DNA from: Antedon bifida
Lineage: Eukaryota > Echinodermata > Crinoidea > Comatulida > Antedonidae
Reading direction: 5' to 3'
DNA length: 64,000 nucleotides
Assembly: GCA_963402885.1 (NCBI GenBank)
Contig: OY727095.1
Location: 8,933,001-8,997,000, forward strand
Under the pieces are notes generated by a model that worked only from the letters and a program-made list of their open reading frames with translations, was not told the origin of the DNA and made no database searches. Shown here in pieces: positions 7,686-63,372 of this stretch. Every line of letters starts with the position of its first letter. Position 1 is the stretch's first letter. The translations under genes were made by a program, and so were the position numbers.

Positions 7686-7757
7686 TGACGTTTACAGGGA
7701 ACTGGCCAATCACGACGCTCGGATCGTTGACCAATGATTTTTGCCGACGTATATAAA
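7686..7757 (+). promoter_or_regulatory. Putative core promoter of the cytokine-like gene (TATA, two CCAAT boxes)
   Basis: A TATATAAA box is at 7750-7757. Two CCAAT pentamers are at 7706-7710 and 7731-7735, and a CRE-like TGACGTTT is at 7686-7693. Transcription would be expected to start near 7780, giving a 5' leader of about 120 nt before the ATG at 7902. A focused TATA promoter suits an inducible gene. Transcription-factor use is inferred from motifs only. Confidence 0.7.
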
Positions 7758-7901
7758 TGGTTTTAAAACCATAGCTGCTGAGTTAACTCATACAAGCAGA
7801 ATCAGAAGCGTGTATATCATACGGATATCATTTTCGGCAAATAAAAGAGTAATTAAGGACAAGGAATATACGACAGTCGGAAACACTTGAAATTACTGGT
7901 T

Positions 7902-10900
7902 ATGGCTCTGATATTAAGTAGTATTCGACGTTTTATTTGTAAGTAGCAATATAACATTGTTTCGTATTATTGTTTGCTTATTTATTTTCTTATGACATCT
8001 TTGATATGTTAGGTTAAGTACCTGGTTGATCTCGTAATCTCACAGACTAAATTTAACAGCGCATGCTGTGAATTGTGCCATATATAACTTTTCTCCTTTT
8101 ATACAAGAAATTAACTTTTTTCCCAAGATTCACTAACATTTCTAATTTTCTTTGCATTTTTGTATATATTATAGCGCATTTTTACTTTTATCTTTCTATT
8201 TTCTTTTTCTTTGTCTATATAGTTATGATATTGTTTAGTATAGTTATACAATTGGCAAAGTCTGCTCCAACGTTAACTGTGTCCCATTTATATTCGGCGA
8301 TGCGGGAAGAGACAATGCACATGTTTCGGGAGACATTTTCGACATATAGTCAGTTTGTAAGTTCAAATCCATGTATCTTCAAATCCATGTATCTATATGT
8401 AAATGTATCTGTTTTGTTGCATAAAATATTGTTGTCATTGTCAAATTTTGCATGCATAACGTAACACATAATGAGCGTATATTTACCAGGAGGTCTAACG
8501 TTAATATTGCAACTACTTAAAAGTTTGGAAGTTTGGTAGCCAAATTCAACAGACATAGAATTTGGGAAAGAAAGGCACTGCAATTATTGAATTATTCAAC
8601 TTGTAAAAACAAATTGGTGTCCTTATGGTTGGGCTTTAAAATTAATCTTAGAATGAAGGCTAGGGAGTGTCAGAAATGAGGTACACGAGAATTTTGTAAA
8701 AGATCGAAGCAAAACTACTGTAGTCCAGGCTCATCTGATAGTAAAGTTGTAGGCCTGGTAATATTATTTACTACATACTATTATGCATATATCTATACTA
8801 TAAGTATATGTTAAAAATAATTCCAAGGTTGATGTTTGTAAACAGTAGAAATTTTAAAAGGGGTTATTTTTGTTTTGATTACTTCATACCCATAAAATTG
8901 TTATAAAATCCAATGGATTATGTGTGAACCCGAATTACCTTTGCAAACTATTCAACGGGTAGCAGAAATTCATTCAATTGATTGTTCACTAGTTATCCGT
9001 AGTAATAAAAATTTGGGACACATGAATGACTGGCTTTAAATGTTAACTAGATTTCATTGTAATCTTGTATTTGGCAGTATTATCATTTTGTATTGCCGGA
9101 TGTCCTTTCCTATCCAACCGACAAGTTTAGAAAAAAAAAGATCAGTCCGGATAATAGAAATATCATCATTGTTAGTATTCAAGCAATTATTTCCCGTAAT
9201 CAAAGTGATTTTTTTGTATGTATGTGTCATATATACTCGTCAAGTTTCTTGGCTTGTTTCCAGAATTGCGGGTAAAAATGTACGAAGACCACGCTTATGA
9301 TAGTAGACAGGTCGGGACTCTCCCGCGGTTCTTCTCCACTGGGCTAGGTTGAAGGCGCACCGGTGCGTTAGGCTGTCGGATGCTCGACATTAATTCAACA
9401 CGTTTTATGTTATTTTAACAGATAGTACTTAATAAGCTGTTGTCTGATTCGAATTTTCAACAGCCTAATCATTTATGACCTAGACTTTCCCATCAGACGG
9501 CTAACTGGTCTGTTTTATCTATCCGTTGACCTTAACAGTGCAACAAATATTATATATTTTATGGAATAATTGTATTAAGCACTCGATAACAGTGTTATAT
9601 TTTATTTATAGGAAACGTTACGGGTTGGCCATACCATGAGTTCCAATTGGTATTTGACTGGTCTTCCGAATCATTTAAGTTGGACATACGCACAAAGGCA
9701 CGCTGCAAGTGTAAGTAGACAAATCGATATTATGATACTTTAAATCTGTCTAGATATACGCTAGTACTAAGTCGCCATAGTATTTAGTAATTGGTCATTA
9801 CTGTAAAGGGATGAAGGAGGGAAGAGGAGAGAAGAAGGTGAGAAAGGGAGAAGAATGAGGGAAGAGGAGAAGAAGAAGGAAAGGGCAGGGAGGATGAAGG
9901 AGGGTAGGTGAGAGAGGATAAAAAGGGAAGGGGAGGGAGGATGAAAAAGGGAAGGGGAAGGAGGATGAAGGAGGGAAGGTGAGAGAGAAAGGAGGGAAAG
10001 GGAGGGAGGATGAAGGAGTAGAGAAGTGAGGGAGGTAAGGAGAAGGGAAATTAGGGAAGGTGGGGATCCTATTTGCGGCAAAATATATTCACCAGTTATT
10101 GAGAATATAATGCTTATATTTTTTTTAATACATAATGTAATGATAGGTCTAATAGTAATTACGGACTTATTATATAGATTAATTCTTAACTATATAGCAC
10201 AACTTTCAGTCATTGAATGCAGACAAACAAGACAATACATATAGAAATGACGTAATGTACGAGCCATGTCTTATTACAAGGGAAATGATTTCAGTACGAG
10301 CATGTCCACTGTCTCTGCACTAATGTGAAATCATTTATGTATTGTTATTAAATACATTTGGGAATTACCAAATTACTGACGAGTAGAAGTAAACATCAAA
10401 CAATGTAACATATCTTTAATCTTTACAAACAGTAAATTTCTGTTCAGCAGTTCAAATTAGAGGCATATTATTGCACTATTCCTTTTAATGGTTTTCCCAC
10501 GACCTAACAGTTTTTCAATCCGGTACTTTTGTTAAAAATATATCAGTATACTACTTGACAAGATTGTTATGATTTTGGTTGATTATCATTAACAATTATT
10601 TAAATTACAGGTCTTATACCAAGAAGGGAAAATAATAAATTTGTCATGTTCCCTAAATTATATTGTGTTATTAAACAACAAGTAATTAATTCTTGAATAA
10701 ATACTATTAAGTATTAATCTGTCAAAATTACTCCTTAAAAAAAAAGACTTTTTAGGCCTGTTTAGAATTTCCAGAACGGCAAGTTATTTCATCTTCACAT
10801 GCAGTGTTTACTACACTTGCATGAAAACAGGGTATTAAATCTTATCCCAAATTCTAAAAAAAGACTTACGAATTTTCTAAAATAACTTTTTACCTATTTC

Positions 10901-13900
10901 TGGTACCATTTGCTGCAAAATAACTTACGTCACTTATAGTTAATTGACTATGGAACGCATCCGATGACATAATAAAGAAGCTTAAAATAATTGTTTTTTA
11001 TACACCGCTCCATTTATAATGAATTTGTTTTTCTTGCTTTGTTACCAGGAAGCAGATGTCCTTGAAACTCATGTTTCAAATCTATTAATATTTGAACGTG
11101 CATTAAGATATATGGAAGCCGATGAACAAACGTACTCTGGTTCACATAGTTTTAGAACAAACTTTCGAGCAATTCGATCAAAACTAAACACCTTGATAGC
11201 AGGATTGCAACATATAGTGAGTACACAATCATTTCATTTTAATGTATAATTAGTTAAACCATGGAGAAATAAGTTAACTTATTTCTCCATGAAAATTTGA
11301 AAATTTCTCTTCCTAATTTGGAATAATCCTATTAAGGGGACACTTACCATGAACCGAACGAGGAGCAAAGATGTTTAACAATATACGACCAACCCCTATC
11401 AAGAGACACGTCCTATTAAGGGGACACTTTTGGTCTCAAATGCGTCTTCTTAAGGGTTCTACAGTATCATCATATGACTATATTATTAATATGCATCAAT
11501 ATCACAATTTGAACGCGCGCGTTGATAGTCTCTGACGTATGATTATTTATAATCTGACGTATGACTTCATAACCTTCCTCAACACCGATTGGTTAAATCC
11601 ACTACTGCGGCACTGCCTAACAGGTTGAAGTATTACGACTAATAATCATAGACTGAACAATTAAACGTCCAATAAAAATAGAGAAAAGAGTGAAATATTT
11701 CACTCTATGGTCAATAATTAATTAGTCCCCATCTTTAAAACAAATCGTAGTATCTTAGCGTTAGCATATCCCACTCTATGAATACACACGGGCGCTAACT
11801 AGTCAACACGTCGTCACAAAGCCGTGATTTAGTCCAGTTTTTGTATTTATAGTACGAAAAGGATATCAAATTAATGGAGTAAAGATCCGTGCGTAATCTT
11901 AATGTCTTAGATGTATCATGGCTTAATTATAGAAATATCTTAAGTGGTATTTGATTAAATCGTCCAAATGAAACTACTACAGTAAATTCGGATTGAATTT
12001 CTCATCCAGATCCGTATCACGATTAGTACGCGACGTCAAACAACCAAAATTCATAATATCACTGACCACCTATCATGCAATTCAGGATGAACTCAATAGT
12101 TCGTTTATTCTAGTTCTAATAACAATAGTTGTATTGTATGCACTGTCGCTCAGTAAAACGCAATAAAATACTTGTATAGTTCGGTGATGTTTAATATTGT
12201 CGAACATAAATAATAAAAAAAGAAGCCAATATAAACGTCGATTGTAGCAGCCACACTTTTTATATCAACATTTCTGTAATGTAAACCAAATCATTTTTTT
12301 TTTAAATAATAAAGATACATAAATGATTGATTGAATTAAAAACCCATGGAGATTTTCCTCCAAAATACAATACTCGACATTCAATTCAATTCAATTAAAA
12401 ATTCTTTAATCATCCCACACGGGGCAATTCACCGGGTGGTTTAGAGGTTGTTATTTTCCGTTAAATTCATATAATAAATTGCTATAATAAAACATAAACA
12501 TGATTTATATAAATAATTTTGCCCACGCTTTTCATTCCTTTCTTTCCATCAAAGGGTGTAACGTTTTACTTCCACTTTTGACACCCCATGCAGGGTATAT
12601 AAAAACTTTCTATAACGCCTAATTAATAACAAAAATACAACACAATACAAACATTTCCGTTCTACCCCTACAATTTTAGCAATTTAAAATATGCACTCAG
12701 CGTAATAATAAATTCCATAAAACTAGTAACAACAAGTATATTAACTAGTCTCTGGAAGAGGTCATCCATATAAAATCAAAACAATAAAAATGTTAGTATA
12801 ATGAGTCAGCAATTGTGAAATAGAATTCAAGCCGATTACGACAACTCTGTCAGTTTGCAGCATCGGTCGTCGAATTAGCTACAATGACATCATCGCAAAA
12901 AACACCAGGCCTCTAAATAGAACCCCACATCACTCAGTAAACGGAAGTGGAACGCCGAGCCCAGCGCCGAGTTCTTGTTATAATCACGTAACGTTTCTGC
13001 CACACCGGCCTAGAGAGTATTAGGTCTATGTCACTGGTCACTGGGCTTATACTAGATCAATTATCCGTTAGTTTATTAAACTAATAATTTTAATATTTTC
13101 ATACATGTATATATTATTGTTATCTATAGCGTTTATTAAAGGTTATGTTCGTTATGCAATATACGTGGGATAACAAGGTCCATCTTCAACGTAATAATAA
13201 TTTGCTTTTCACACGTGCTCTCTCGGTTGACTAATAGATCAACCCACCAACCGTTCAAAAACAAAAAAATTATCTAAAAATCCTAGATTATAGAAAACAA
13301 TGATTGCAAAATGTCTTTATAAATTATACCTTATTAAATAACACTGACTCAAAGGTAATTATTCTGATGGTGGTATTTGAGTCGGATTAGCCAAGTATTA
13401 TAAGCAGTGTCGTGTTTCTTGGGCAAATTAGTGGAATGCGGATCTGTCGTCATTTTGACGGAATTTTGTTTGTCAACGAGGGTTCCCACCCTGCCATGGC
13501 ATTTCCGATTAAGCAATATCTGACATTGACTATATATTCCTCCATGAAAAGATGCAAGAGTTGCTCTAGGCTAAATGAACGGGATGGCTTTGATTTTCAC
13601 CTATTAAAAACATTTTGAAATTGCATTAAATTGTATACATAGTAACGCACAAATTAGCAGGCCTTAGAATGTGATAAAATTCCCACTCCAGGAAAACATC
13701 AGGGATGGCGATTACAAATGATAACCTACGCTTATGCAATAAGCCACTATTTCCTTTTGTGGTAGACGTAGATATCTATAATTAGGCCTAATTGTTGGTA
13801 ATACATGTGGTTGAAGAAGAAGCGTTTAAAAAACAAACAGATTACGGTAAATAAACCGCAGGTTATGTACCGAACATGGATGGATAAAAACTGGAATGCT

Positions 13901-15058
13901 GACATAGTTTCGATACTATAGGGGACGTCCTACAGATAAATCGCAACCCTTTTCATTTATTCATTGGCCCCATGGTCTCGTCACTCACTTTAAACGAAAG
14001 ATTGTCAATAACAAATATTAATAATAATAACAATAGGCCTATATTAAAATAAATATATAAATAATGACAACTTTTAACATTTTAAAGCGCGAATTAAAAT
14101 GAATGTTAATTAATGATTCATAATTTGATTCATTCATTTGCACAAAACAATGGTACCTTCTCCCGTGAATATGGGTTGAACGTGTTAAAATAAAATACAT
14201 TGCTCCTTAGTCGTTTCACGAAAAACTCAGTGTCCTCTTAAATAGGAGTGCCCTCTAAATAGGCGTGTCCACTGATCAGGGGTATCCTCTGAACAAGGGG
14301 TGTCCCAAAATAATTAGAGCCTAATTGTTTAAACCCAGTTACAAGATGATGTAATCAATATACATGATGATGAGATACGATTCTTGACGCCTGTATGGAA
14401 ACTGTATCTGCACAAAGCCCTCGCTTTATTAAATTTCATCTTTAAATCTATTTATCGCGTGAAGGAATAACGACCGAGAGGATTACTTTTAATATTATTA
14501 AGCTTCATTAACACCTCATTTTAATGAGTATGCATTATTCATATTGTTAAAGTATACCTTAATTTCAATAACCCGGATTTTATGTTATTAGTTTTTTCCC
14601 AATATGACTGTTAGTAATATTGAATTACATCATTAGGTAGGTCATAATTATTTCCGGTGCAGTACTTAATAAAATAGATTTTTTTTTTAAATAGTGCATT
14701 TAACAATAGTCAGGTGCGGGTAAAATGAGTTCATTCGCATTGAATTTGCATATTTACACAAGTAATTATCAAAATGTATGATGTATACTTGTTGATTTAT
14801 ATTGTATTCATTATTTAATTAAAGAAATTATCATTATTATATTATCTTATTTGTCACTTACATCATATTTTTCAGATGGATATAGAAAATTTGGTCGGCA
14901 TCAACCAAACACCAGTGACGTCAACTCTGATATTTAGCCCGAATGCTGATGACGAGGAAATCAACAGACGAGACCTTATTGTTTTACGGGAGCTTGCGCA
15001 TTACTCTCCCGTTCTATCAAGCGATATCAACAGGCTCTCACGCGCACGCAGTGGTTAA
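7902..15058 (+). CDS. Putative secreted long-chain helical cytokine (IL-6/CNTF/CLCF1-like), five exons
   Basis: Exons 7902-7938, 8223-8356, 9612-9710, 11049-11216 and 14876-15058 join in frame to 206 residues; every junction has GT/AG and intron phases are 1-0-0-0. Residues 1-27 form a signal peptide (RR followed by the hydrophobic FIFMILFSIVIQL, then AKSA). The mature part (about 180 residues) has no cysteine and shows four helix-like stretches: A about 32-57, B 91-116, C 123-152 and D 171-200. Helix D carries D-x-x-V-L-R-E-L, then S-x-D-x-N-R-L, resembling helix D of vertebrate CLCF1/CNTF. One sequon, NQT, is at 156-158. The role (extracellular ligand of a gp130/domeless-type receptor) is inferred. 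Cautions: the FxxK receptor motif of the LIF/CNTF group is not preserved, and Pro191 lies inside helix D. Size and exon plan match IL-6, G-CSF and growth hormone. The gene model is firmer than the family call. Confidence 0.75.
9790..10060. repeat. Purine (GA/GGA) tract in cytokine intron 3
   Basis: About 270 bases of almost pure purine on the plus strand, built from GGGAAGG, GGAGGATGAAG and GAGAGA words. It begins about 80 bases after the exon 3 donor. Open frames across it are low-complexity Ser/Pro/Leu artefacts. Such tracts can form triplex (H-DNA) structures; that is general knowledge and is not shown here. Confidence 0.85.
11217..14875. other. Long intron 4 of the cytokine-like gene
   Basis: About 3.7 kb between exons 4 and 5, with a GTGAGT donor at 11217 and a TTTTTCAG acceptor ending at 14875. 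It contains short repeats built on AAGGGGACAC near 11330-11450 and a related stretch near 14235-14310, plus AT-rich sequence. I see no additional exon that keeps the frame. Confidence 0.6.
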
Positions 15059-15217
15059 CGTCACATCCTGTGAACGGTAGGCCCCCTCTACAGTTCGGCG
15101 CTATTGCAATAGAAATGATCTATGAGGAAAGGGGTAAAGTTTGAAACTTTAGAACGAATGAAAAAAGTTAAAAAGAACAATATTGTTTAATTCATCTCAG
15201 CTGAATACCAAAGATCT

Positions 15218-15262
15218 ATTTAAAATGTTATTTAATATTTATGGTAATTTATTAACTATTTA
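15218..15262 (+). promoter_or_regulatory. AU-rich cluster in the cytokine 3' region
   Basis: Five ATTTA pentamers occur within 45 nt (starting at 15218, 15230, 15237, 15247 and 15258), about 160 nt after the stop codon. Clustered ATTTA motifs destabilise many cytokine mRNAs, so this fits a tightly controlled transcript. The region is AT-rich, so some copies are expected by chance. No clear AATAAA was found soon after it. Confidence 0.5.
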
Positions 15263-15299
15263 TTATTGGATTCATAAGCTTGCCTTAAGTGGTCAGAGG

Positions 15300-18200
15300 C
15301 AATGACGTCATGAGAACAAATTTTATTCTAAATATTAGTCCATCCAAATGTTTTTGAATGTATTTATCATATTTATATTATTTATTTTAAGATATTTATT
15401 GTTCTGCCTGTTATATTCAAGTTGTGAACATATTATTCATTCCAAAAAGCACGCACTCGATTTTTTGCAGGGTAAATACAAGTCGGTTGTAGCGCTAAGC
15501 GAGCTCAAACAGGGTTTTAGTGTTCAAGACAGGGTCAGGCCTTTGATATTTATCGTCTTTGATTTAGTGCGCGCAAAGCCACAGCAACCAATGACAATCA
15601 CCTATTTCTAATTCGCAAATTATTGCGTAGCCGGTTAGAAAATAATTACTTTTGAGATACACAAAAAAAAAAAACAATATCCAAATTTACGCAGGTATAC
15701 GCGTTTATTTCGGATTAGGAGGCCAAGTTTAATAACTCGTATAAAAACAAAATGCAAAATAATAATTAAGAATTATCTTAACAGTTCGCAATGCAAAAGA
15801 TTAAAAAGTTAGGTTTAACACTTTACAATTATTAGGCCCTCTGCCCCCACCACCTTATTTACAAAAATCCTGGATGTGACACTGACGAGTTATGATATAG
15901 CGCGAAAGTGTTCGTACACGGTCAGTATCTATAATTATAGCATTAACATTACCACCGTCGCTACCTCGTATTAGACTATAAGCGTATAATACAATATTTG
16001 TACCTTGATGAACAGTAATATTGTTGTACGCACGCCAGTCATATCGGATATCGTTTGACAGTATAATCTCCAGACATTCATTGATTTATAACATTATAAT
16101 ATATATAGTTATATTTACGTGGTAAACGGAAATAATCAGGCAAGACTTCCATATTTATGATTTTTTATTGTTATAATTTATGTTTTTTTATATCAAGCTA
16201 CATTCGTCTAATCCAGGTTATATAATGTTGTTTTTCCAGTATGGGAAGCGCTTGATATCTTAATGCATCTTATAATATTTATTATGTAATTTATAATGTA
16301 ATTTTATTTTTTATTAGTGGACGCTTTGTGCCTGTGTATGGTTAATGCTTGAAATGTTATAGTATTTGAACTATAGATTTCAATGTTATTATCAATGGTG
16401 ATAATTTACAAAAACAAGATATAAATGAAAAGAGCGAATATCGCATTATACAGCATACATTTAAATGTCCACATGTATGTAAATCTTGTCTATTTTTGCC
16501 ATATCCTGAATAATTAATTCCGAAAATGTATCTCATTTAAAATGCATAATTTATGACGTCATGCCAGTAATTATTCCAATAAGACCAAATGTTCGCTTTA
16601 TTTTGGCAAAATATAGAAAATATTAGCTTTAATGAATGAAATATAGTAGTTTATTGTCTTTAGCTTGGCCTATATTATAAAGGTGCTATTAGTAGAAATT
16701 CGAGCTTATTTATTATTTAGATATGTTAAGCGTTGTTATGGACGCCCACCTATAATTCATAAAGCCACTTTCAGGCGGTAAATTAAGTATATCTTAAATG
16801 TGTGTTGTTTACACGTAAGGTTAAGATCGCATACAAGATGATATAGTGCAATATGTTATTCTTCTTTTATTATATAAGTTATTTATACCTTGTTAAATAT
16901 ATATATTAAGTTCTGCAATGGCTAGCAGTGCTGATTATTTCAAAACGCTTATTGTTTTTGTCTCAGCCATTTCGTAATAAAAAAGGCAAAAAACTAAAAA
17001 AAAAAAAAATTTCTATGTCAAATATTTTAACACTGCTTTTTTTAATAAAATAAATGAAAAAATATATATAATGTGTGATTATAGTTCTGTAATTTAAAAA
17101 AAATAGTAATTCGTGATATTTAAAGATGACTTGAGAAAACACTTTCCACTCTTGTGAATTTAACATCATGGGCTTATTAAAGTATGAGTTGTTTTGGAAT
17201 TGGGACCGAAACATAACCCAATCATTAGCAGCGTAATATGACAAAAATAAAATCAGTGACAAGGACAAGGATGTTGTACAAGGCATAGACTGGCTTAAAG
17301 AGGTGGAACTAACGTTTTACAAAAACCGGAACAGATATTGTAGGCCTACGACATACTGAAATACCCCTTTCACATCACGCCTAGCAAAAGTCTGTGGAGT
17401 TGGCACAAGCCGTACAAAACGCCAGGGTGAGCATGTCTATATGCGATGTGAATGGTGTATGACTGCTAAACGAGATATTGATATTATTTTATAGATCAAA
17501 GCAACATTAATACACTAAACTACCCCTTTCACATCACGCCTGGAAAAATCTGCTGTACAAAAGTGACGCTAGTACGTGTGAGCATTTCTAAGCGATGTGA
17601 ATGCGTATAGCAAATCTGGAGTTGGCACAAAGCTGTACAAAATGCCAATTTAGGCGACGTGAATGGTGTATGGACTGCTAAACGAGATGTCGATATGCTC
17701 TTATGTTATCCTGCTGTTGGAAACACAACAAACTGCAGTACTTTTTGTATTTTTAGAGGAACTCTGGAACTGGAGCTCTTCTTTGCACCCCCTTCTTCCA
17801 CCTACACCTTACCTTTGCCTCAATGCTGCACATATTGTTGAACATTATTGTATGATGATGATGACGACGATGATAAATGATAATGACGTTGAGATGATGA
17901 TGTCGACAACGACGAGGATGATAATTAATATAGATCAAGGCAACATTAATGGTGACTGTGATACTACTTTCTTCAGTTCGTTCAAAATTACAATAAGCTT
18001 ACTGTTAGGTCTTTTAACATTTTTTGAAAATAATAACTTTATTAGGTCTAGTTGTTAGCAATCATTAGCCTACTCTTACTGCCGACTTAACTCCTATGTA
18101 ACCTATAATTCGCCCACCTAAAACAACACATTGTTCTCTTGTTGATTATATACTATTGATGTTATATATTTAGACATAATTAAGAGATAAAAGAGTAAAA
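15300..18200. other. Intergenic repeats, no supported gene
   Basis: AT-rich spacer. A degenerate duplicated segment occurs at about 17365-17680: phrases such as CCTTTCACATCACGCCT and the block around GATGTGAATG recur about 130-200 bases apart. Trinucleotide ATG/ACG runs follow near 17850-17930. Open frames over these stretches are short and low-complexity. Confidence 0.5.
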
Positions 18201-19647: not shown

Positions 19648-19999
19648 AAGCTTGGTTCCCACTAGCGACGCAACGTAACGCAACCTACGCAACGTAAGAA
19701 AATGCCCTTCCAATAATTGTATTTGCCCCTGCCTGCGTGAAATCAAACCTGCGATGTTTGCAGCACTGTTGCGTCGTCGGTTCCCACTTGTGATTACGCA
19801 ATACAGCACTTTGCGTCAATACGTCGTTGCGTTGCGTCGCTAGTGGGAACCACGCTTAAAGCGTGGTTCCCACTAGAACAGTGCTGCAAAAATCGCAGGT
19901 TTGATTTCACGCAGGCGGGGGCAAACACAGTTATTGGAAGGGCATTTTCTTACGTTGCGTAGATTGCGTTACGTTGCGTCGCTAGTGGAAACCACGCTT
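19648..19999. repeat. Two adjacent GGTTCCCACTAG inverted-repeat elements
   Basis: A full-length copy at 19648-19857 begins AAGCTTGGTTCCCACTAG and ends CTAGTGGGAACCACGCTT. A shortened copy in inverted relation follows directly at 19859-19999. The termini are inverted repeats and the interior holds paired GCGTTGCGTTACG-type words, so either strand can fold into a long hairpin. No coding capacity. The flanks are TA or TTA. Confidence 0.9.
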
Positions 20000-23268: not shown

Positions 23269-26200
23269 CTGAAAATAATATGAATAAATATATCGTATTA
23301 ATTATGGAAAGGTGATCTCACCAATATAGCATACATTAATAAAGACACAATTTATAATACGTCCCTGTTAATAGGAGACTTTTCCCTAAAACGAGCCAGA
23401 GGAAATAGTTATTTTAGCACTACGGCTAACTCCTACATAAAGCTTGGTTCCGACAACAAGGACGTAAGCTCAACGCAAGTGTGTTGACCAATCACAAGGG
23501 GCAGTTCGGATGATCCATCGCGTTATCATTGGTCAAATTGCTTGCGGCGCGCTTAAGTGGGAACCAATCATCAAGGGGACACGTTGTGTTCCCTTAACAG
23601 GGTTCTAGTATTATACTGTACATTATATTCTTGCGTACGTCGAAGCTTATTGATCACAGCGCTGAGAAGCTGTTGTTTTCAGAACTTCGTACGTATCATG
23701 TGCAAACGTTATAATATCAACAGTCTAAATACTACATATAAACCAAAATCTATGTTATTATACAATACAAATGTGGTGTTAAAACTATTATAGTGCGATA
23801 AAACATAAATCTGATAGAATGCTAAGCCGCCAGATCCGAATCATCTATTCTTTTGCCTGCGAAACGAACGGCATTGCCACTTGGCGGGACAGAGACGAGT
23901 TTACTCATTACATAAAAGCACTGCACTGTGAATGTATTGCTGTTAGCTTATGTATCTCTCAAAATATAAAACGTACATAAAACACTGTCGTCTGTAAAAG
24001 AACAGGTATCAGGCAGACATACATAAAGACAAATAAACAGACCAATATTGCCTTGTGTGGTGATAACTATAATGGCATGCTAGTGAGGTAGACTATTTTG
24101 CTACGTTGAAGAACTATACTTATACCGTAACAATTTTCTCCAGGGCTGCCAATATCACATAATTCAAACCTAGAGGTCGGATCTGTTGTATAACACCAGG
24201 CGGATGGTTCGTTATCGGGGTTACGGCAGTGGTTGTGACTGCCTAAACCCGTATCAGGATAATTGTTAGGAGTTCTCGTATGCCTATGGGGTGACTGTGA
24301 TGTCCAAAGTTGGCACGTTTTCCCAGTTACGGTGATATTGACTGAGCCTCGATAATCAACAGCATCTGTCATTCTATAGCATTCTGGAAATACGGCCACA
24401 TAATATGTTATTGCGTTGGCAGGTAGTGAGGGGCGGATTCAATGCGGGGCCCAAACATTTCACAAATTGTAATGCAAAAGATAGGACATCAAAATATGTT
24501 CAGCAATTCATTTCACTACTTTTAGGCCCTGCCTCCTCCCCCTATTTCAAAATCCTGGATCCGCTACTGGTAGTTAATAATGGCGTGTTCATAGCGAAGA
24601 AGTACACACTTGTTTGGTGAAATGAACGGAAAATTACCATGGCAGTTTTCTCCAGATCACATAATTAAAATCTATCACCAGAGGCAGAGGGATCGTTATC
24701 AGCGTTACGGCAGTGGTTGTGATGGCCTTCTAGATGACATGTTGGAATATGTTGTATTCATTAAAAAATGATGTTCTTGATTTTTACACGTTTAATATTT
24801 CTTGCTTGAAAAAACCCCCGAAAAAAACAACGGTGCTTTGATTTACCTGTATCATTGAAGTTGTCGTAATAACAACCGAACAACTCCACTCTCATGCTTG
24901 CAAAATGATGCAGACAGTAACGTTCTAACTTGAACATAACATACCGAGCATCGACGGCTGGTAAAAGGCTGTGGTGCTTTACAATACTCGGGTCAAGTAT
25001 ACCATGTTCAAAATAAGTTTTGTTGTTTGGATCACTCTAGAAATTATTTAAAAATGCAGAAAACAATTACAATCTTCAACAATACTTTAGTAAAAATAGA
25101 CAAACAGACACAAGCGATCGACTATCCTTGGCGGAGGTAAATTATGAGTTTGAAGCACCAGGGTGCATTGACAAAGAGTTTTTGACAAAAAATTATCCTA
25201 CAGGGTACCCTACCAGGAGGGAGAAGGACACGCAGACAGAGAAAGAGGTGGGGAGACAACATCAATGAATGGACAGGTTTGACCTTTGTTAACTCACAAC
25301 GAACTACAGAGGACAGAGATCGATGGAGGAGCATTGTCCAAAAGTCAGCAGTGGTGCTTCAACAACCCTATCAGGGTTAGGAGACTGAACTGAACTGACC
25401 ACGTAGGCTAATAGGATCCGTTCAGGCTTATTTATTTACATGGGTAAGCTGGTTACGTAGGTACATTTATCGCCATCGGTGTCGGTATAAAAACCAACTT
25501 AACCGTGTCGATAACTAAGTACCGGTAACGGACTCATAGGTCTACAGTAGATATCACATTTACCTGTATTCTGGGTAAAGCCACCTTGTAGACACCTTTC
25601 TTTGTACCATAAAGTAACTGAAAACTTCCAATCGAACCCTGAAAATCATGCAACGTTCCAACCCGCAAGCCGCCTTGTGTAGCTATGCTCGTTATAGTTG
25701 CTTTATAGAGTAGATCAATCGCTAGCCAACTATCGTGGTTATCCAGCTCATGTTTTCGGTATATTTTCCAGGCTGTAAATGTATAGATGAAGTATTATAT
25801 ACAGTAAAACTTCTATTAAGGGGGGACCTTATTTACATAACAAAGAGTTACAGGACATCAAAACTTTCGGCAAGGGACATGTTACTGGATTCTGGATTCT
25901 CTGGTAATATGTCTCTGGTACCAACGGATGGGTTCTACTGTATATTGCATAGGACAATAGGATATTGAAGACCTTTCATATGTCATTGGGCTGGGTGGGG
26001 TCGTGGGGGTATGGGGGAGGCTTTTGCAGCAGTTGTGTTTAAAAACCCTGCCAAAAGATTATAATAAAATAGCATCTATAATCAAGTTCAACAGATGCAC
26101 AAAGTACCCGTATTTGTCATGTTCAACCTGGCATTATGCGCAGGCGCGTCTTCATCTGGGGCTTCTGATGACGTAATCTGGCAGTCTTTTATGCGGCCAC

Positions 26201-29200: not shown

Positions 29201-32200
29201 TTATTTTTTAAATAATTATCTGATTAGTTAACAAATTAACCGATAATGTTTGTATGGCTGCGGAAACACGGCATTCAATGTAAGAATTATAAACAACATA
29301 TCGTTCTAATATTAAAGATGAAGATTAATTTAATCATACTTTGAATAGGTTATTTTGTAGTTTTAATAAAGTTAACCATTTCCATAGAAAAAAAACGGAA
29401 AAAATAATGTTTTCCCTTATAAAATAACAAAACAAATGGTTAAATTCAACAAAAAATCCATTGGCTGAAAGCCATTTTGCTTTAAATTACAGTTTTTTCA
29501 GGTAGGCCTAAACACATTTTTTTAATCTAATTTTTGGTCAAAGTGGATAACTATTATATGACATTAAAATGGCATATTCAACAAAAAAATTGTAATAATA
29601 ATTTTTTCAGGGAGACAATACATCTTTAATGGTCTTACTTGAATATATAGAATCATCTTTTGCGGAAATCCAACGCCATTCTCCTTCTACCGATGAATCA
29701 GACAACCCCAGCCATAGGCCTACAAACTCAATGTAAAATACATTGTCAGTTCCATTCACTAACTGTTCAGTTCCATTCACTAACTGTTCAGTTTCATTCA
29801 CTAACTGTTCAGTTCCATTCACTAACTGAACAAACACGTTTTCTTCATACGATTCAACAATTACCAACGTGCTGCTATATTGCTCACACATGCCAACGGC
29901 ATCAGAATATACACTGCTCTCGCCCACGTAAGCGTAACATTTGCTGCCGCCGAGTAGCCAATTCTCTGGACATGTTGGTGTAACTATAAAACAAGCAAAC
30001 AGACAGACTAATAATATTATTGTTTAATCTTCAAAATTACGATCTATGCGGGAAAAAATTAACAGTAAACACACGATGTTGTCACTTTAACTTCGCGTGA
30101 TGATACTGGACGGAAGTTGGCAATACTAATATAGGTTAACATAAATAATGTGGGCGTCCTCATTCGACCAGATGTATCCAGGATGAAAAATGAATATACA
30201 ATAAACAATGCAATAGTTAACGTGATTTTAAAGTTACGTACATTCAAGTTTGTTGACTGGGCCAATTTCGACAACAAGTTTTTTGTTAGCAGACCCTTCT
30301 TCATCGGGATCGACGTTAAATGAAATGGTGTTATTTATATCTAAACCGTCACCAATTGTATGGACATCGAACGTTTCTTGTACAAAATGGAATAGAATAG
30401 GTTCTGAAGCGGACTCTCTAAGACGAACTTCGACTGATACAGACGTTCGTGATTCCCGTAACAATAAAATGATTCGGCATGTGACGTTTGAAAACATTAA
30501 AACGTCTGGAGTCGGTGAACATTCCAAAGGGTATGGATCCGGTGTAGGTATTTCGGGGATCTGAAAAATGGAGTAAGATCAGCAAGTATATCAAGGAGAA
30601 AAGGTAAATTTATAATAATTATTGTTAACATGTTAAGTTTGCATTTCATTGGATGCAACACGACGAGGTAGGCTTAGACGCAAGTGAGTTGACCAATCAC
30701 AAGCGACAGTTTTGGTGATCCACGCGTCGTAATTGGTCAAACCACTTGCGGCGCGTTTAACGTCGTTGTGTTGCGTCCAATTTGTATTTATACATTTGTT
30801 TATAGATTATTTAGAGGGTTGTTAGGTTTAGTTAGTCCCCAACGTATTGAACGTATTCAAAAATCGGTCCCCGGTCGTTCTCTACATGGACGCCACAAAT
30901 GTGCATACAGGTTATCAAAACAAAATTAAGCTTACCTCGGGTGATGGGTCCGGAACATAAGTAAAAGATGACTGAGCGTTTACAGACTGAGTGGGTGAAT
31001 AATGGGCGTATATATAGAATGCATTTGAGCCCGACGGATGCAGATTGCACATATTATGCGTTACAGTCACGCTAATTCTTATTCTGTTATAATTCTCATT
31101 GTTGGTAACATATCCTATTAAATAAACATATAAATGTGAAATAGTATAGAATGTTCGATACATGACACATTTATGGGGCATGAGTTATATTGGCGAAAGG
31201 AATAGAATTGATTGATTTTTTCAAATTAATAAACCGAATTATTCTGATAAGCAAAATGTTCTAAAACACTTTTGTATGTTTTTATTAGAAATGTTACAAC
31301 GCGATTTTACAACAATATTGCTTATTTATATAGGCCTATGCAGTATCTAATTGAAACAGTTTAACTTTCTTTCATATGACCTACAGTTTTGAAACAAATG
31401 TAATTAATGTCAATTATATAAAAAAAATCTACATTACATTTACTTTTATTCGTAGGCCTATGTGAACGAATAAATCTAAATTATTGTGTTTTAGTTGTCT
31501 TTGAATTATTTGTATAACATTTCGAGGAAGACCGAGAACCACCCTACCAATAGCTCTCAGCAACGACCTACTCACCCTTTATAAGCATAACACAGACATT
31601 ATGTATCCCAGACAATTGAAAACAAAGAAAGACATGAAACAACTTAAAGAACTAGCCAATGAAAGATCAGACTGGAAGAAACTGGTAAAAGAGATTTACG
31701 GAGCAGCCCAAGCGGAAATGTCGGCAGACTTTTCAGCGGAAAGGCAGTAATATAGTAATATAATAATATATTGTTAATGTTCTCTACTGAACCACTTTGG
31801 AAATCATTGCTTCAGCACTGAAAGTTTCATTCAGTATAAAGACAGAATAAATAAATAGTAGTAGTGGAGCTGTAGCTTGATGGTTTACGTTCTTGCCTTC
31901 CAATCCCAGGGTCCAATCCTGACCTAGTGCCAGGGTTGTAACTCACGACTCTTTCAACTCCACTCCCTAAGCCTCAAATGAGACTTCATAAGCATGATAA
32001 ACTACAGAATAGTTTATCTTATCCTGTAATTGCTGTTGGATGAGTATGAAATAAATTTTAAAAAAATAAATAAATGGCCCCAAGCGAAAAGAAAAACACA
32101 AAATGATAAAAAAAAACTTACCAGAGTTGATCATTCTACCCATCATTACGCTTCTGCCTGGAATTCCTTCAGTTATTTCCCTATCTACACATGGGATATT

Positions 32201-35200: not shown

Positions 35201-38200
35201 AAAAAATGTAATTTAAAGCAAAATATACCTAAATTGTCTGGAAGACAATGGTTTTTGGTTGAAATTAACCATTTCTTTTGTCTTTTTATAAGTGAAATAT
35301 TTATTTTTGATGATTTTTTTTCTACAGAAGTGAATAACTTGATTAAAACTGTGAAATTGCCTATTCAAAATCTGATTTTATTAAATTTTATTTGTCATGT
35401 TTTTGGGGGACAATACATCTTTAAATGCATAATGTTAATATCACTGAAGTAAAATATTGGATATTGGTTTTCAAATGTAGTTTAAAACCTTCCCAGTAAA
35501 TGTCGGTCATGGAATGTTGACAAAGGGTTAGAGAAGTGAATGAGAATTTTACAACAAAAGAAATCCTTTTATGACAGTGTTATTAGTATACCAGGGTAAG
35601 ATATATAGAGTAGGCCTATACCTTGTAAGAGAAAAATAAACATAATATCTCATACCTCAGTAGTAAGATTCGTAATGAAGCTAAGTTGACCAATTGTTAG
35701 AATTTCGTCATCTTGTGTTAATGTAGCATTCATAGTATAATTCGTATTGTCAAGTATATCTTCCATGTTAGTCAAAATGAAAGTTAACTCTATTTTAACC
35801 ATTCGTTCTTCAGCGAGGCTTCCAGAAAAATCCGCTTCATCTCGAGTATAAGCAGTATATTTATATCGCTAGAAGAAAAGACAAATATATAGGCGAAACG
35901 AATGTGATGATGGGGATTCCTTGGATCTGCGATAAGGAATTTCAGTTGGGATGGAAACACCATAAAACAAAAATAAAAGCTTTTAACTTTTACCTTGCAA
36001 CAAGTTTAAACAATAACATGGAATTATTTAAAAATGTTTTCTGTGTGCATATTGTGTGCATACATCCGTGGGATGCGCATTCAAAATCAAAATATATTTT
36101 GTAAGGTTGCGTTTTAATTCACACATTCTTACCGTAGACGCAATATAACTGTGTGTACCCCGCATATCTGCACCACTTTTTTCCTGTAGTTGGGGCTCTT
36201 GTGTGAAATATCCAAATGTTCGTGGCTCGGGATCAGTTTCATACTCCGTTGACACTTTTAGTTGAAAACTTCCGAAAAAATATTGAGGAAAGGTGGCGGT
36301 GACTAAAACAGACATTTTATCACCGGGATGCATCACATGATCTCCCTCTGTACGTTCCAAGTCTAGTTTAATATCATTATCTATCTAATTAAACACAAAA
36401 GAACGGTCAATTTCAGAACAGTTAGCTCAAACACAAACTCGACTTTGAAGTAACCTTTGAAAGGTGGTATTATAGAAAGTTGTCATTTTTAATGAAAAGA
36501 AAAGAATTTGTAGGCCAATTTCTATTAATAATGTTTTAACGGCAAAGGTGAACCAATGGTATTGTTTTTTTTGTTACTTGATTAATTCTACTAAGGTGCT
36601 TCAAAATATACCACAACTCGCTTGATCATGCCTCCATAGGCACTGCTATCTAACAATTCAGTTTTACGTTGGGGATAATACAAAAACATACTCTCGATAA
36701 CCGACAAGTAGAAATTACAAAGGACAACTTGACCGAAGACCATATTTTAACAACGTGTTAGGGATGTTCATAATTTCAGAACCATCGCGAGATTAATAGG
36801 ATATCGCCGCACGCGCTCGCCGTACAACAGTCGCCGTAAATTGCTGTGACGTCACAGGTGCATCGCGATATCCTCAATCTCGCGATTGTTCTGAAATCAT
36901 ATGTACATCCCTAATACGTTGTAAAAATATGGTCCTCGGTCAAGTTGTCCTTTAAAACGATTACAATTTATTTATAATAAAATAACTTACTATTACAGAA
37001 AAATTTGCAGTCAAAGTTATAGAATCTGTAATTTCATTGCCGCTATACGTGTAAGAAGCGTACCAAGTGTAGTTTTGGCCGTCATTGAGCTCTGAAATAT
37101 CGTCTACCGTAGCCATTGCAAACGATACTACAATCTTTGAATCTACATAAACCTCAACTGACGATCCACTCATATGATAAATACCCATCTGAAATTACAG
37201 ATAGATATTTAGAAGCATAAGAACGTATTGGATGCATTTGTAATGCGCTTTATACCAAAGACTCTCTTCGTGTTCAAGCGGCGGCGCTCATTCCACTACC
37301 CACGACGATAAGGGCTAATTATAGACCAGTACACCGGACGGCATGCAAACTAGATTTACACCGGACCTCCAGTTTAAAGTCCTTATCCGACAGATGCTTG
37401 AACTTGCGCAATGCTATGGCCATGGTTTTGCAGCGCCCTGCCTTAAAGTACGATTGAATACAAAATTAAAATAATAATAATAATGAAACTATAAATTAAA
37501 TGTTGTCCTATACATTATAAACAAATATCTCTCCTTTTGTCACTCGCTCACTGACTAATACCATAAATACTAATCAGTTAACTACTACACAATAATACCA
37601 CAAAATACTGAATTTAGGCCTATAATACGTTAAGTATAGAGGATTTAGTGACTTTCTATATAAATGATTTTGTTTTTAATGGCTTGAACTAAAACTGATT
37701 TGTACACATACGTATACAGGTTCATTACGCATGCGTCGACGTATAAACCGTATCAGTCCCAATTGACAAATGACCTAAAATTCGGATTTTCCCTTTTTAG
37801 GCCTAAACCTTGTTTTGCAACTTCAGGTTGGTTCTTCCCACTAGCGACGCAACGTAACGCAGCCTACGCAACGTAAAGCGTGGTTCCCACTAGAACGCAG
37901 CGCAGCGACGTATCGACGCAAAGTGCTGTATTGCGTATTCACAACTGGGAACCGATGACAAAACAGTCTGTAAAATCATCAATTTATTTAAAGAAGTTAT
38001 TGTTATTTTATTGATTCTTCTTCATCTAATTCTAAGGTGTGGTATTCAGGATAAAGTTGGTCAACAAATTTAGAGTTAAAATACAAGGCAGGTGCGAAAG
38101 AGAACTATTGGTAATCTTAGGTCTTGGGTCTTAGGTTTCGTGATCTTAGGTCTTAGGGGATCTAAAGCTTGGTTCCCACTAGCGACGCAACGTAACGCAA

Positions 38201-40497
38201 TTTACGCAACGTAAGAAAATGCCCTTCTAATAATTGTGTTTGCCCCCGCCTGCGTGAAATCAAACCTGCGATATTTGCAGCACTATTGCGTCGTCGGTTC
38301 CCACTTGTTATTACGCAATACAGCACTTTGCGTCAATACGTCGCTGCGTTGCGTTCTAGTGAGAACCACGCTTTAGCTTTCGTGATCTTAGCTTTCGTGA
38401 CACCATGCTGCAAACATGGGAGGTTTGATTTCACGCAGGCGGGGGAAGACACAATGAGTGGAAGGGCATTTTCTTACGTAAGCTTGGTTCCCACTAGAAC
38501 GTAACGCAAGGACGTAAACGCAACGCAAGCGTTTTAACCAATGACAAGCGAAGTTATAGACAGTTAGCAATCACAAGCGAATAAGCCATCGCTTGTGATT
38601 GGTCAATTCACTTGCGTTGCGTTACGTCCTTGCGTTGCGTCGCTAGTGGGAACCACGCTTTAGCGTAGATTGCGTTACGTTGCGTCGCTAGTGAGAACCA
38701 AGCTGTAATCACAAGTGGGAACGACGACGAAACAGTGCTGCAAACATCGCAGGTTTGATTTCACGCAGGAGGCACGGGGGTAAACACAATTATTGGAAAG
38801 GCATTTTCTTACGTTGCGTAGATTGCGTTACGTTGCGTTCTAGTGGGAACCACCTTTAAAATACAAACACAATAAATTAATAAAGAATACTTACGTCGGA
38901 AACGCCGTAATGACGGCTTGTAATTCCAAGACTCTTGGTTGTATAGACAGGTGAAGTAACTGCTCCGAATTGTACCCCCTCTTCAGTTGAAGCAAATATA
39001 TACAAGCTAAACGAAGAACTTGTGTGTCCAGCGGGAAATGTAACCTTAACTTTACCTCGAAGAACACCACCGACGTAAAGTTCGTCAATATATTGGGATC
39101 CGTAAGTTTTTGTAAAAGTAATAGTTGGATCCTAGAGCAGTAAACCAGTAAAATAATACAATAATAGTAAATAATAAACAAAATATAAAATAGTTATATT
39201 ATGGTGATATACCATGACCTGTAGTATCATACATATTGGTAAGTATAGAACGAAGGATTACTATCATGATGGTATGTCTTTCCATTAACATTTACAAGCG
39301 TACAGTAAATATCCAACATAGACCTCTTAACTAAGCCCCACCACACTGCTCCACCACTTCGGTGGTTCAAAATGTTACAAGTTACGGTACCATTTCAATT
39401 ACAATGTATGTCCATTTGTCCAAATGCATGTGTATACGCCAGTAGGCCTATACTTTAGATCACAGGCGGAGACAGCAATAATTTGAGATGTACCTGGCCT
39501 TAAACACTTAAGTGTGGTTCCCACTAGAACGCAACGCAGTGACGTATTGACGCAAAGTGATGTATTGCGTAATCACAAATGGGAACCGACGACGCAACAG
39601 TGCTTCAAAAATCGCAGGTTTGATTTCACGCAGGCGGGGGTAAACACAATTATTGGAAGGGCATTTGCTTATGTTGCGTAGGTTGCGTTACGTTACCTCG
39701 CAAGTGGGAATCGAGCTTTACACAAATTAAACTACATCTTCCTACAAATACTAGGCCTCGGTACTTACAGTACTTGCCGTTGTTACGTCTGTCACGTTTG
39801 GTTCCTCAGTTACGACTGACCCCTCTGTTATGATTGACCCCTCTGTTCCGACTGTTCCCCCTGTTACGACTGACCCCTCTGTTATGATTGACCCCTCTGT
39901 TCCGACTGTTCCCCCTGGTACGACTGAGTCCTCTGTTACGACTGACCCCTCTGTTCCGACTGTTCCCCCGGTTACGACTGAGTCCTCTGTTACGACTGAC
40001 CCCTCTGTTGTGACTGAGGCTTTCATCATCGGAATTACGCCTTAAAACGGTTGGTTATAAAACAAAATAAAACGCAAACTTCAATGAACTTCAAACTTAA
40101 CATCCATTTTTTATCATTAAATTAGATGCAATTTGGGTGCGGTTCCAAATATAGATAGGCCTAAGTTTCTGTAGGCCTACTTCATAACTATTAATAATAA
40201 TTTTATTTCAACGTATTCTCTAGACCCTATACAAGAAAGTATTTGTCTTCGTAAAAATACAAAGAAAATGTAGTTTATCTGCAATTCTGTTTAAAACGAT
40301 ACATAAACTGAAAAAGTATATATATTTAGGCCTATAGTAGGCAACATTTTAAAAAATACTAAGATAATTAAGTAGTCAGGTTAATTCTACATTGTCTTCA
40401 TTTTCCTTTTTATCAAAGCTACGGACTTAATAATACCAAATACAACATTGATATACTTACATGTACAAAATAACACGGTTAAAATATACGACGCCAT
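21328..40497 (-). CDS. Secreted mosaic protein: mucin repeats, beta-rich region, C-type lectin, discoidin, kringle (24 exons)
   Basis: Exons in transcription order: 40497-40461, 40040-39769, 39131-38895, 37188-36991, 36384-36133, 35868-35656, 34313-34049, 32888-32704, 32404-32122, 31114-30936, 30560-30242, 29983-29639, 28961-28842, 28419-28203, 27731-27572, 26896-26677, 26245-26108, 25772-25564, 25036-24847, 24383-24126, 23268-23112, 22618-22560, 22079-21786, 21437-21328. All phases match and the sum is 4917 nt, giving 1638 residues plus TAA. Order: signal peptide (1-12 and on), Thr/Ser-rich repeats 13-103, beta-rich segments 104-813 with many N-glycosylation sequons, C-type lectin 814-968, beta-rich 969-1167, discoidin 1168-1346, kringle 1347-1432, C-terminal module 1433-1638. 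No membrane segment after the signal was seen, so it is likely extracellular. I do not recognise the whole architecture as a named protein. The role (adhesion, recognition or matrix) is inferred from its modules. Confidence 0.8.
21503..21718 (+). mobile_element. tRNA-derived SINE
   Basis: A tRNA-like head with a box-A-like GGCGGTTAACG and the box B GGTTCAATCC is followed by a shared body (ACTCACGACTCTTTCAACTCC) and an A-rich tail. A second copy with the same body is at 31861-32075. It lies in the last intron of the mosaic gene, in the opposite orientation. Confidence 0.85.
22925..23090 (-). mobile_element. tRNA-derived SINE
   Basis: The minus strand has the tRNA-like head GTGGCTTGGTGGTTATGATG and box B GGGTTCAAGTCC, followed by a short body and a tail of AATAAATAAATAAA type. 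It sits just past the exon 21 donor of the mosaic gene. Confidence 0.8.
24126..24383 (-). CDS. Exon 20: kringle domain
   Basis: The exon encodes ECYRMTDAVDYRGSV, TCQLWTSQSPHRHTRTP, NYPD, HCRNPDNEPSAWCYTTDP and ELCDI followed by ENC. The kringle landmarks YRG, CQxW, PHxHxxTP, NYPD, CRNPD and WCYTTDP are all present, as are six cysteines, so it looks intact. Kringles mediate protein or ligand binding. It follows the discoidin exons directly. Confidence 0.95.
24637..24735 (-). pseudogene. Decayed duplicate of the kringle exon
   Basis: On the minus strand this reads HHNHCRNADNDPSA, then a broken stretch with a stop in place of the WCYT region, then LCD. The nucleotides parallel 24128-24245 (for example GTTACGGCAGTGGTTGTGA in both). 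It lies in the intron between the discoidin and the functional kringle exon and lacks the first half, so it is a relic of an exon duplication. Confidence 0.8.
24847..26245 (-). CDS. Exons 17-19: discoidin (F5/8 type C) domain
   Basis: Exon 17 (26245-26108) encodes CTSPVALGMESGRIKDCQIT, ending HNARLN. Exon 18 (25772-25564) encodes AW, SWLAIDLL, ITSIATQGG and FQLLYG. Exon 19 (25036-24847) encodes NNKTYFE, ARYVMFKL and MRVELFGC. These are the signature blocks of the domain in order, from the first Cys to the final E-L-x-G-C, over 179 residues. The family binds lipids, collagen or glycans at the cell surface. The exon 17 donor is the weak GTACTT. Confidence 0.92.
25222..25380 (+). mobile_element. 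Non-LTR retrotransposon ORF2 C-terminal fragment
   Basis: An open frame to TAG at 25380 encodes RRTRRQRKRWGDNINEWTGL, then RDRWRSIV near the end. The G-R/R-x-x-K-R-W-x-D-N and D-R-x-x-W-R pattern is typical of LINE reverse-transcriptase tails. Only the last 52 codons remain. It is plus-oriented inside the minus-strand gene's intron. Confidence 0.75.
27200..27480. repeat. Minisatellite (GTGTTCGTCCATTCATTC family)
   Basis: Tandem 18-22-bp units ending CATTCATTC or TTTATTCGA are arranged in a higher-order block of about 78 bp present twice. All frames are open across it, producing misleading low-complexity peptides. It lies in an intron of the mosaic gene. Confidence 0.9.
28842..29983 (-). CDS. 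Exons 12-13: C-type lectin domain
   Basis: Exon 12 (29983-29639) starts TPTCPENW and shows GSKCYAYV, A-x-x-x-C, LVIVESYEENVFV, WLGLSD and GEWRW. Exon 13 (28961-28842) supplies NCAFMDINGTWISRSC and VVCEQ. These match the conserved cysteines and core of the C-type lectin fold. No EPN, QPD or WND calcium/sugar triplet is visible, so classical calcium-dependent sugar binding is doubtful. Four 21-bp repeats lengthen the loop before WLGL. Confidence 0.88.
29311..29630. repeat. MITE-like element, TTAAAGATGTATTGTCCCCC family
   Basis: The right terminus is GGGAGACAATACATCTTTAA; the left terminus is partly deleted. The interior contains TTCAACAAAAAATCCATTGGCTG and GGCATATTCAACA, shared with copies at 35087, 42934, 47822, 55285 (fragment) and 58981. 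Its edge lies about 8 bases inside the intron after the lectin exon donor (GTAAGA at 29638-29633). Confidence 0.85.
29747..29830 (-). repeat. Coding 21-bp repeat (QLVNGTE x4) inside the lectin domain
   Basis: Four tandem 21-bp units at 29747-29767, 29768-29788, 29789-29809 and 29810-29830 encode QLVNGTE, QLVNETE or QLVNGTD. Each unit carries an N-x-T sequon. The repeat lies between ENVFV and WLGLSD, adding about three units compared with a normal lectin loop. Confidence 0.92.
31523..31750 (+). mobile_element. Non-LTR retrotransposon C-terminal fragment
   Basis: A 75-codon open frame to TAA at 31748-31750 begins RGRPRTTLPIALSNDL and contains LANERSDWKKLV. This resembles the end of a LINE reverse-transcriptase ORF. 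It is intronic to the mosaic gene, in the opposite orientation, and is followed directly by a SINE. Confidence 0.7.
31861..32075 (+). mobile_element. tRNA-derived SINE
   Basis: The same family as 21503-21718: box-A-like TAGCTTGATGG, box B region GGGTCCAATCC, shared body CTAGTGCCAGGGTTGTAACT, and an AAATAAATAAATGG-type tail ending close to exon 9 of the mosaic gene. Confidence 0.85.
32600..32696. repeat. Truncated GGTTCCCACTAG element
   Basis: Only the right part is intact (GGAAGGGCATTTGCTTTTG through CTAGTGGAAACCAAGCTT). It ends about 8 bases from the end of exon 8 of the mosaic gene (exon end 32704), so the element lies against the splice donor. Confidence 0.8.
33213..33252. repeat. CGGT/CTGT microsatellite
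   Basis: A run of GGTC units (CGGTCGGTCGGTCGGTCGGT, then CTGTCTGTCGGTCC). The flanking words CGCGTGGACGCGACT and GTAGCACGCGACTT suggest it lies within an older repeat. Confidence 0.9.
33575..33870 (-). mobile_element. tRNA-derived SINE, full length
   Basis: On the minus strand the head reads GGCCGAGCGGTTAAGAC, with box B GGATTCGAGGC (tRNA-Ser/Leu-like). A long body follows, and the 3' end CTGGGCCCTCTGAGAGACC recurs at 61534-61585, 61655-61705, 62041-62100 and near 45880. Related copies lie at about 37280-37440 and 52500-52745. Confidence 0.8.
35087..35424. repeat. MITE-like element, TTAAAGATGTATTGTCCCCC family (best copy)
   Basis: Both termini are intact: TTAAAGATGTATTGTCCCCC on the left and GGGGGACAATACATCTTTAA on the right, 338 bp apart. 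No transposase coding is present; the plus-strand open frame across it is non-functional low-complexity sequence. It is intronic to the mosaic gene. Confidence 0.9.
36719..36957. repeat. Near-complete palindromic element (about 239 bp)
   Basis: The left arm starts AAGGACAACTTGACCGAAGA and runs through AACGTGTTAGGGATGT and CATCGCGAGATTAATAGGAT. The right arm mirrors it (ATATCCTCAATCTCGCGATT, CATCCCTAATACGTTGT, TCGGTCAAGTTGTCCTTT). Only the centre, around GCGCTCGCCGTACAAC, differs. It would fold into a hairpin with arms near 100 bp. It is intronic (between exons 4 and 5 of the mosaic gene) and non-coding. Confidence 0.9.
39769..40040 (-). CDS. Exon 2: mucin-like Thr/Ser/Gly/Val/Glu repeats (coding VNTR)
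   Basis: Residues 13-103 of the mosaic protein are built of recurring SVVTGGTVGTEG and SIITEG blocks, forming an 18-residue (54-bp) higher-order repeat. Thr and Ser density suggests O-glycosylation, a stalk-like stretch after the signal peptide. The exon starts in phase 1 and ends before GTAAGT at 39768. Confidence 0.8.
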
Positions 40498-63360: not shown

Positions 63361-63372
63361 CCCCCCCCCCCC
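63361..63372. repeat. C homopolymer
   Basis: Twelve or so consecutive C bases in otherwise AT-rich sequence. Its length may be unreliable in the assembly. Confidence 0.9.

Follow-up and report, generated by a model that had tools for sequence, protein, structure and literature searches.

A five-exon gene of the crinoid Antedon bifida that probably encodes a secreted class I helical cytokine

Introduction

Do crinoids have a gene for a class I helical cytokine? The question is raised by a locus on the plus strand, at positions 7902-15058 of a 64,000-nucleotide stretch of the Antedon bifida genome (assembly GCA_963402885.1, contig OY727095.1, positions 8,933,001 to 8,997,000 of the forward strand). 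We refer to this whole stretch as the window, and all coordinates below are positions within it. The original prediction, made from the DNA letters, proposed a cytokine of the IL-6/CNTF/CLCF1 type. We consider it probable, at roughly 0.74, that this Antedon locus encodes a secreted four-helix cytokine of the long-chain class I type, in the superfamily that comprises CLCF1, CNTF and IL-6 as well as growth hormone (GH) and prolactin (PRL). We place it in the class I superfamily only, because it lacks both the FxxK motif of LIFR-using gp130 cytokines and the cysteines of GH and PRL.

Gene model and product

The five exons join to a 206-residue product that ends with TAA, and all four introns begin with GT and end with AG. 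The coding part of exon 1 (7902-7938), which with the start codon comprises 12 codons and one nucleotide, belongs to the signal-peptide region and agrees with a record from Antedon mediterranea; intron 1 is in phase 1. Exon 2 (8223-8356) contains the remaining signal-peptide region (to residue 26, at 8263) and the predicted helix A (residues 28-57, 8267-8356). Exon 3 (9612-9710) encodes the crossover loop between helices A and B (residues 58-90), exon 4 (11049-11216) the predicted helix B (residues 91-118, 11049-11132) together with most of helix C (residues 123-146, 11145-11216), and exon 5 (14876-15058) the end of helix C, the C-D loop, helix D (residues 172-205, 14951-15052) and the stop codon. 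Introns 2, 3 and 4 are all in phase 0. Intron 3 carries a long purine-rich simple repeat of the GAGG/GAAG type (9810-10065, plus strand).

The signal peptide was assigned by inspection, as a hydrophobic run up to L-A-K-S that is followed by A-P-T, and the mature start was set by eye at A27. So judged, the predicted signal peptide held up, and the length of the product and its N-terminal hydrophobic run fit a secreted class I cytokine of about 180-220 residues. A motif scan of all 206 residues identified no cysteines, no FxxK motifs and no N-glycosylation sites. The absence of FxxK had been foreseen, as had a proline inside helix D, which is residue P191 when counted on the joined product.

In a search of 5.8 billion proteins with the whole product (146 candidates sharing words), the sole match with E <= 10 was P0001, an uncharacterized Antedon mediterranea protein of 206 residues (99% identity, 100% coverage). 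The two sequences are identical at 204 of 206 positions; the window has V at residue 20 and H at residue 34, where P0001 has F and R, respectively. Since P0001 is the same 206-residue product, an independent annotation made identical exon joins. The intact five-exon gene and its cysteine-free product are thereby confirmed. When residues 91-206 were used as the query (47 candidates), nothing besides P0001 was found among the same 5.8 billion proteins; distant relatives may escape both searches, because shared 5-residue words are needed. Within the 64-kb window, no other tblastn match better than E 0.4 pointed to a paralogue.

Exon-intron architecture

Five-exon class I cytokine genes, such as those of GH, EPO, IL-6 and G-CSF, have introns of phases 1, 0, 0 and 0: the first interrupts the signal-peptide region in phase 1, and the other three, in phase 0, follow helix A, precede helix B and lie close to where helix C ends. 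The same phases, in the same order, recur in the Antedon gene. Its helices are partitioned as A, AB loop, B plus C, and D: intron 2 lies at the end of helix A, the AB loop has an exon of its own, and helix B is encoded together with most of helix C. Counted from A27, mature residue 31 is the last one before intron 2. The genes of CLCF1 and CNTF have two or three exons, as against five in Antedon. Five exons are also reported for the G-CSF gene (PMC6389648). GH in which exon 3 is skipped is described as missing residues 32-71 (PMC11817076), so that intron 2 of GH, too, follows residue 31.

Sequence comparison with helical cytokines

In order to compare the mature protein with class I cytokines, it was aligned with them exon by exon, and the scores were set against shuffles in which the hydrophobic/polar pattern of every exon was preserved. 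CLCF1 reached z 4.2 (0 of 2000 shuffles), and human, bovine and chicken GH reached z 3.8-4.1 (p 0.0005-0.001). Salmon GH and LIF followed with 1.9 each and IL-6 with 1.7; CNTF scored 1.3-1.4, and 10 of the 16 class I rows lay below 1.4, PRL among them with 1.2. Among the rows outside class I, ferritin H scored -0.2, IL-10 -0.4 and IFN-beta -1.5. When the split points were shifted by 6 residues in 27 variants, CLCF1 ranged from z 2.4 to 4.7 and GH from 1.8 to 4.0. A test free of splits gave 4.3 for human GH, 4.4 for bovine GH, 4.0 for CLCF1, 2.35 for IL-6 and 2.1 for CNTF, with a maximum of 2.3 (calmodulin) among 11 helical control proteins from outside class I.

These scores bear on the proposal that the protein is a class II cytokine, similar to interferons or IL-10. 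Class II cytokines are likewise secreted helical proteins, and the type I interferon genes of fish also have four introns, all of them reported in phase 0 (PMC4929537). The phase-1 first intron of the Antedon gene therefore argues against class II, as do the negative scores of IL-10 and IFN-beta and the z of -0.3 for IFN-gamma in the split test, and we regard a class II identity as very improbable.

Across 13 human class I cytokines, CLCF1 ranked first with z 4.3, and the p value corrected for taking the best of 13 was 0.0027 with the P0001 sequence and 0.0073 with the window allele. Averaged over the 13 cytokines, z was 1.41, a value reached by 0 of 3000 shuffles; mean z was between -0.26 and 0.73 for 10 controls, which included three class II cytokines. 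Calibration on known pairs of human cytokines gave 10.8 for GH-PRL, 6.4 for CNTF-CTF1, 5.7 for EPO-TPO, 5.1 for IL-6-G-CSF, 4.6 for LIF-OSM and 3.80 for CNTF-CLCF1. On this scale the Antedon protein scored 4.43 with CLCF1, more than CNTF does, and 3.66 with GH. In the same calibration, human CLCF1 had the highest mean z to the other class I cytokines (2.53, next to 2.52 for CTF1; CLCF1-GH 3.33, CLCF1-PRL 3.27), a pattern suggestive of a protein that has diverged less than most of the human class I set.

Three hidden Markov models (HMMs), for CNTF, CLCF1 and CNTF+CLCF1, were built from 29 CNTF and/or CLCF1 proteins without the Antedon sequence. The combined model gave the Antedon protein 8.6 bits, a score attained by 1 of 500 sequences in each of two types of shuffles. 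With the same model, CT-1 scored 34.9, LIF 9.9, G-CSF 7.9, IL-11 7.2, IL-6 3.4, EPO -0.6, PRL -1.1 and GH -1.5 bits, and the best of eight controls scored 4.7. An hhalign comparison with the CLCF1+CNTF alignment gave a P-value of 0.0014 at a probability of 6.9%; comparisons with the CLCF1-only or CNTF-only alignment were uninformative. A first test by local alignment yielded p 0.06 for CLCF1 and 0.60 for CNTF with BLOSUM62, and 0.018 and 0.06, respectively, with BLOSUM45. Altogether, the similarity to class I cytokines exceeds that of pattern-preserving shuffles; it is weak but significant.

Predicted structure

Four helices in long-chain order had been predicted. With alignment rows of CLCF1 and CNTF, which bias the result, AlphaFold2 produced a family-assisted model with a mean predicted local distance difference test (pLDDT) score of 71.2, a clear helix order A-B-C-D and an up-up-down-down pattern with long AB and CD loops. 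A structure search with this model matched CNTF and CLCF1, and all 50 matches listed were long-chain class I cytokines. The single-sequence model was poor (pLDDT 49, predicted template modelling score 0.44), and the helix order was weak in it. The best matches of the single-sequence model were ferritins; we rejected them because residues 1-26, the signal peptide, serve as a helix of the bundle.

Untranslated and promoter regions

AU-rich elements mark short-lived mRNAs of cytokines. A cluster of such elements is found at 15218-15398 (plus strand), in what is presumably the 3' untranslated region; both the extent of this region and the function of the cluster are inferred. The stretch from the stop codon to 15430 contains 9 ATTTA pentamers (2.2 expected) and 6 TATTTAT heptamers (0.27 expected), counts that were reached in 0 of 1000 shuffles in either case. 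We also scanned both strands in sliding segments of 372 nt with a step of 20 (3182 per strand). At least 6 TATTTAT heptamers were present in 11 of 3182 plus-strand segments, every one of them at 15041-15612, and in 0 of 3182 minus-strand segments. At least 9 ATTTA pentamers were present in 10 plus-strand and 5 minus-strand segments. By these counts on both strands, the cluster is outstanding in TATTTAT and not unique in ATTTA. The first polyadenylation-like signal downstream is ATTAAA at 15800.

Upstream of the gene, a match to the TATA box consensus, TATATAAAT, is located at 7750-7758 (plus strand), about 150 nt before the start codon, and may serve as the promoter element. A scan of the 1 kb upstream identified one GAS-like site and no match to NF-kB, AP-1 or CRE sites; neither result is used as support.

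Evidence against a cytokine and the case for convergence

A considerable number of results weigh against a class I cytokine. In the exon-wise test, z was near zero for EPO (0.2), CTF1 (0.2) and leptin (-0.35). In the split-free test, PRL reached just 0.25, and calmodulin (z 2.3, p 0.027) was level with IL-6 and CNTF. In the calibration, the mean z of the Antedon protein (1.36) ranked above leptin only; the other 12 of the 13 human class I members had higher means. Of the controls, apoA-I came nearest on mean z (p 0.03) and ferritin H on the maximum (p 0.07). Most of the sequences in the panel were entered by hand, not retrieved from a database. Among the HMMs, the combined one alone stood out; the CLCF1-only and CNTF-only models gave just p 0.02-0.05. 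In a three-way MAFFT alignment, identity was 20.7% with CLCF1 and 17.0% with CNTF, values that do not stand out from those of shuffles (p 0.34-0.36 and 0.70-0.72, respectively).

Database searches point in the same direction. Pfam gave no IL-6-family or GH/PRL match to the protein; its sole match, a chance one located on the signal peptide, was to DUF4389 (E 0.049). The profile searches by which the original prediction was to be checked thus returned no family assignment from Pfam, and from the CNTF+CLCF1 HMM a score that was above the controls but weak. A phmmer search of the PDB with the whole protein found one chance match (Iporin, E 0.56), and searches with exons 2, 4 and 5 singly found none. 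Neither shared-word search of the 5.8 billion proteins revealed a second invertebrate relative. In a profile search with CLCF1, CNTF and P0001, no row that named a species named an invertebrate among the 120 of 257 matches listed, P0001 as part of the query aside, and some rows were unnamed. With regard to structure, the unassisted model is poor and its closest matches were ferritin-like, and the assisted model, which matches CNTF and CLCF1, is biased by its own alignment rows.

Some of these results would be expected if the gene encoded a secreted helical protein specific to crinoids, with no homology to cytokines and a convergent likeness to them: P0001 is the single match in the large protein searches, there is no meaningful sequence match in Pfam or the PDB, and the unassisted model is poor. 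Such convergence would have to extend to the phases and positions of the introns, to the corrected test against 13 cytokines and to the AU-rich elements, and we therefore judge it distinctly unlikely. We return to the reading of the gene as a class I cytokine, and to its place within that superfamily.

Relation to the gp130 and GH branches

The original label of IL-6, CNTF or CLCF1 would place the protein specifically in the gp130 branch. CLCF1 was the best of 13 cytokines exon-wise, the exon with helix D matched CLCF1 at p 0.002, and the CNTF+CLCF1 HMM score lies between those of LIF and G-CSF. The original proposal of a long-chain class I cytokine with a CLCF1-like helix D finds support in the gene architecture and the statistics. 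The wider label fared less well. FxxK is the site-III motif of LIFR-using gp130 cytokines, and the Antedon protein differs from CLCF1 and CNTF by the absence of this motif and by the proline in helix D. Pfam returned no IL-6-family match, z was just 1.3-1.4 for CNTF and 0.2 for CTF1, and without splits GH (4.3-4.4) scored above CLCF1 (4.0). Moreover, helix A and intron 2 fit GH best. Membership in the gp130 branch is, on balance, a tentative possibility.

Membership in the GH/prolactin branch would make the protein an echinoderm GH-like hormone that acts via a homodimeric GHR-like receptor. Helix A of the Antedon protein (APTLTVSRLY...FSTYSQF|E in the P0001 allele; the window has H for R) resembles that of GH (FPTIPLSRLF...FDTYQEF|E). 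An ungapped comparison with residues 1-36 of human GH gave 10 identities for the P0001 allele (p 0.0018 for identities and 0.0002 for the score, pattern-preserving null); this likeness was spotted by eye before it was tested, and the window allele, with H at residue 34, has one identity fewer. Intron 2 is at the same residue as in GH, the phases 1, 0, 0, 0 are those of GH1, and GH of three tetrapods reached z 3.8-4.1. However, GH and PRL have conserved cysteines that form two disulfides, and the Antedon protein has no cysteine. Its helix D fits CLCF1 and is unlike that of GH (exon p 0.63 against human GH). PRL (z 1.2 exon-wise and 0.25 split-free) and salmon GH (1.9) scored low, and the CNTF+CLCF1 HMM separates GH (-1.5 bits) from the Antedon protein (8.6 bits). 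An amphioxus GH-like type-I helical cytokine of 208 residues has been described (PMC9010856), a precedent in favor of this branch, which we nevertheless consider unlikely.

Neighbouring sequence in the window

Other parts of the window contain a kringle domain (24067-24435, minus strand; Pfam E 4e-23) and a C-type lectin domain (29607-30020, minus strand; Pfam E 1.9e-6). The open frames between 21 and 40 kb that hold these domains appear to belong to at least one large multi-exon gene for an extracellular protein. Two exons of an amino-acid transporter (Pfam Aa_trans) are found at 59411-61284 (plus strand), and open stretches at 50114-53063 (minus strand) may encode a protein similar to the nucleolar protein NOP14. 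Recurrent, mutually similar peptide strings (for example RFDFTQAGxxTxxGRAFSYV and LRQYVxALxSSxN) in frames at 19741-19959, 38196-38501 and 41893-42129 (plus strand) and at 63225-63647 (minus strand) suggest a dispersed repeat or mobile element. A minus-strand frame at 39754-40041 contains a tandem repeat of TEGSVVT-like units.

Discussion

The closest precedents that we identified are amphioxus GHl and an IL-6-like molecule of the starfish Asterias forbesi, both of which can be compared by description only. Amphioxus GHl, an invertebrate type-I helical cytokine of similar length, also has low identity to its vertebrate relatives (PMC9010856); amphioxus is a chordate, Antedon an echinoderm. The Asterias forbesi molecule comes from an echinoderm (Beck and Habicht 1996, cited in PMC8226699), and its similarity to IL6 is given as below the BLASTp threshold (PMC8226699). 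Drosophila Unpaired proteins, ligands of the invertebrate gp130-like receptor Domeless in JAK/STAT signaling (PMC13203501, PMC8226699), are likened to the Antedon protein by description as well. On the receptor side, IL6R-like receptors have been reported for the sea urchin Strongylocentrotus (PMC13203501). In the literature searched, within the available parts of its texts and with most subscription papers and all bioRxiv preprints outside it, we found no class I helical cytokine gene established by sequence for echinoderms.

If the Antedon gene does encode a class I cytokine, its signal peptide would be cleaved near residue 26, and the mature protein of about 180 residues would fold in the up-up-down-down manner. 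Its mRNA may be short-lived and inducible, with rapid induction and decay. The protein could then bridge class I receptors of the gp130/Domeless or GHR-like type and so activate JAK/STAT signaling.

The GH-like helix A and intron 2 and the CLCF1-like helix D could mean that this echinoderm class I cytokine keeps ancestral traits of two branches, an interpretation to which we give even odds. In class I cytokine signaling, the ligand side, and not only the receptors and JAK/STAT, would then be at least as old as the last common ancestor of echinoderms and chordates. With a concrete crinoid gene, the missing ligands could be sought in a testable way: the gene would offer a query, a template of intron phases and a signature of AU-rich elements by which to find genes of this kind where BLAST does not succeed.

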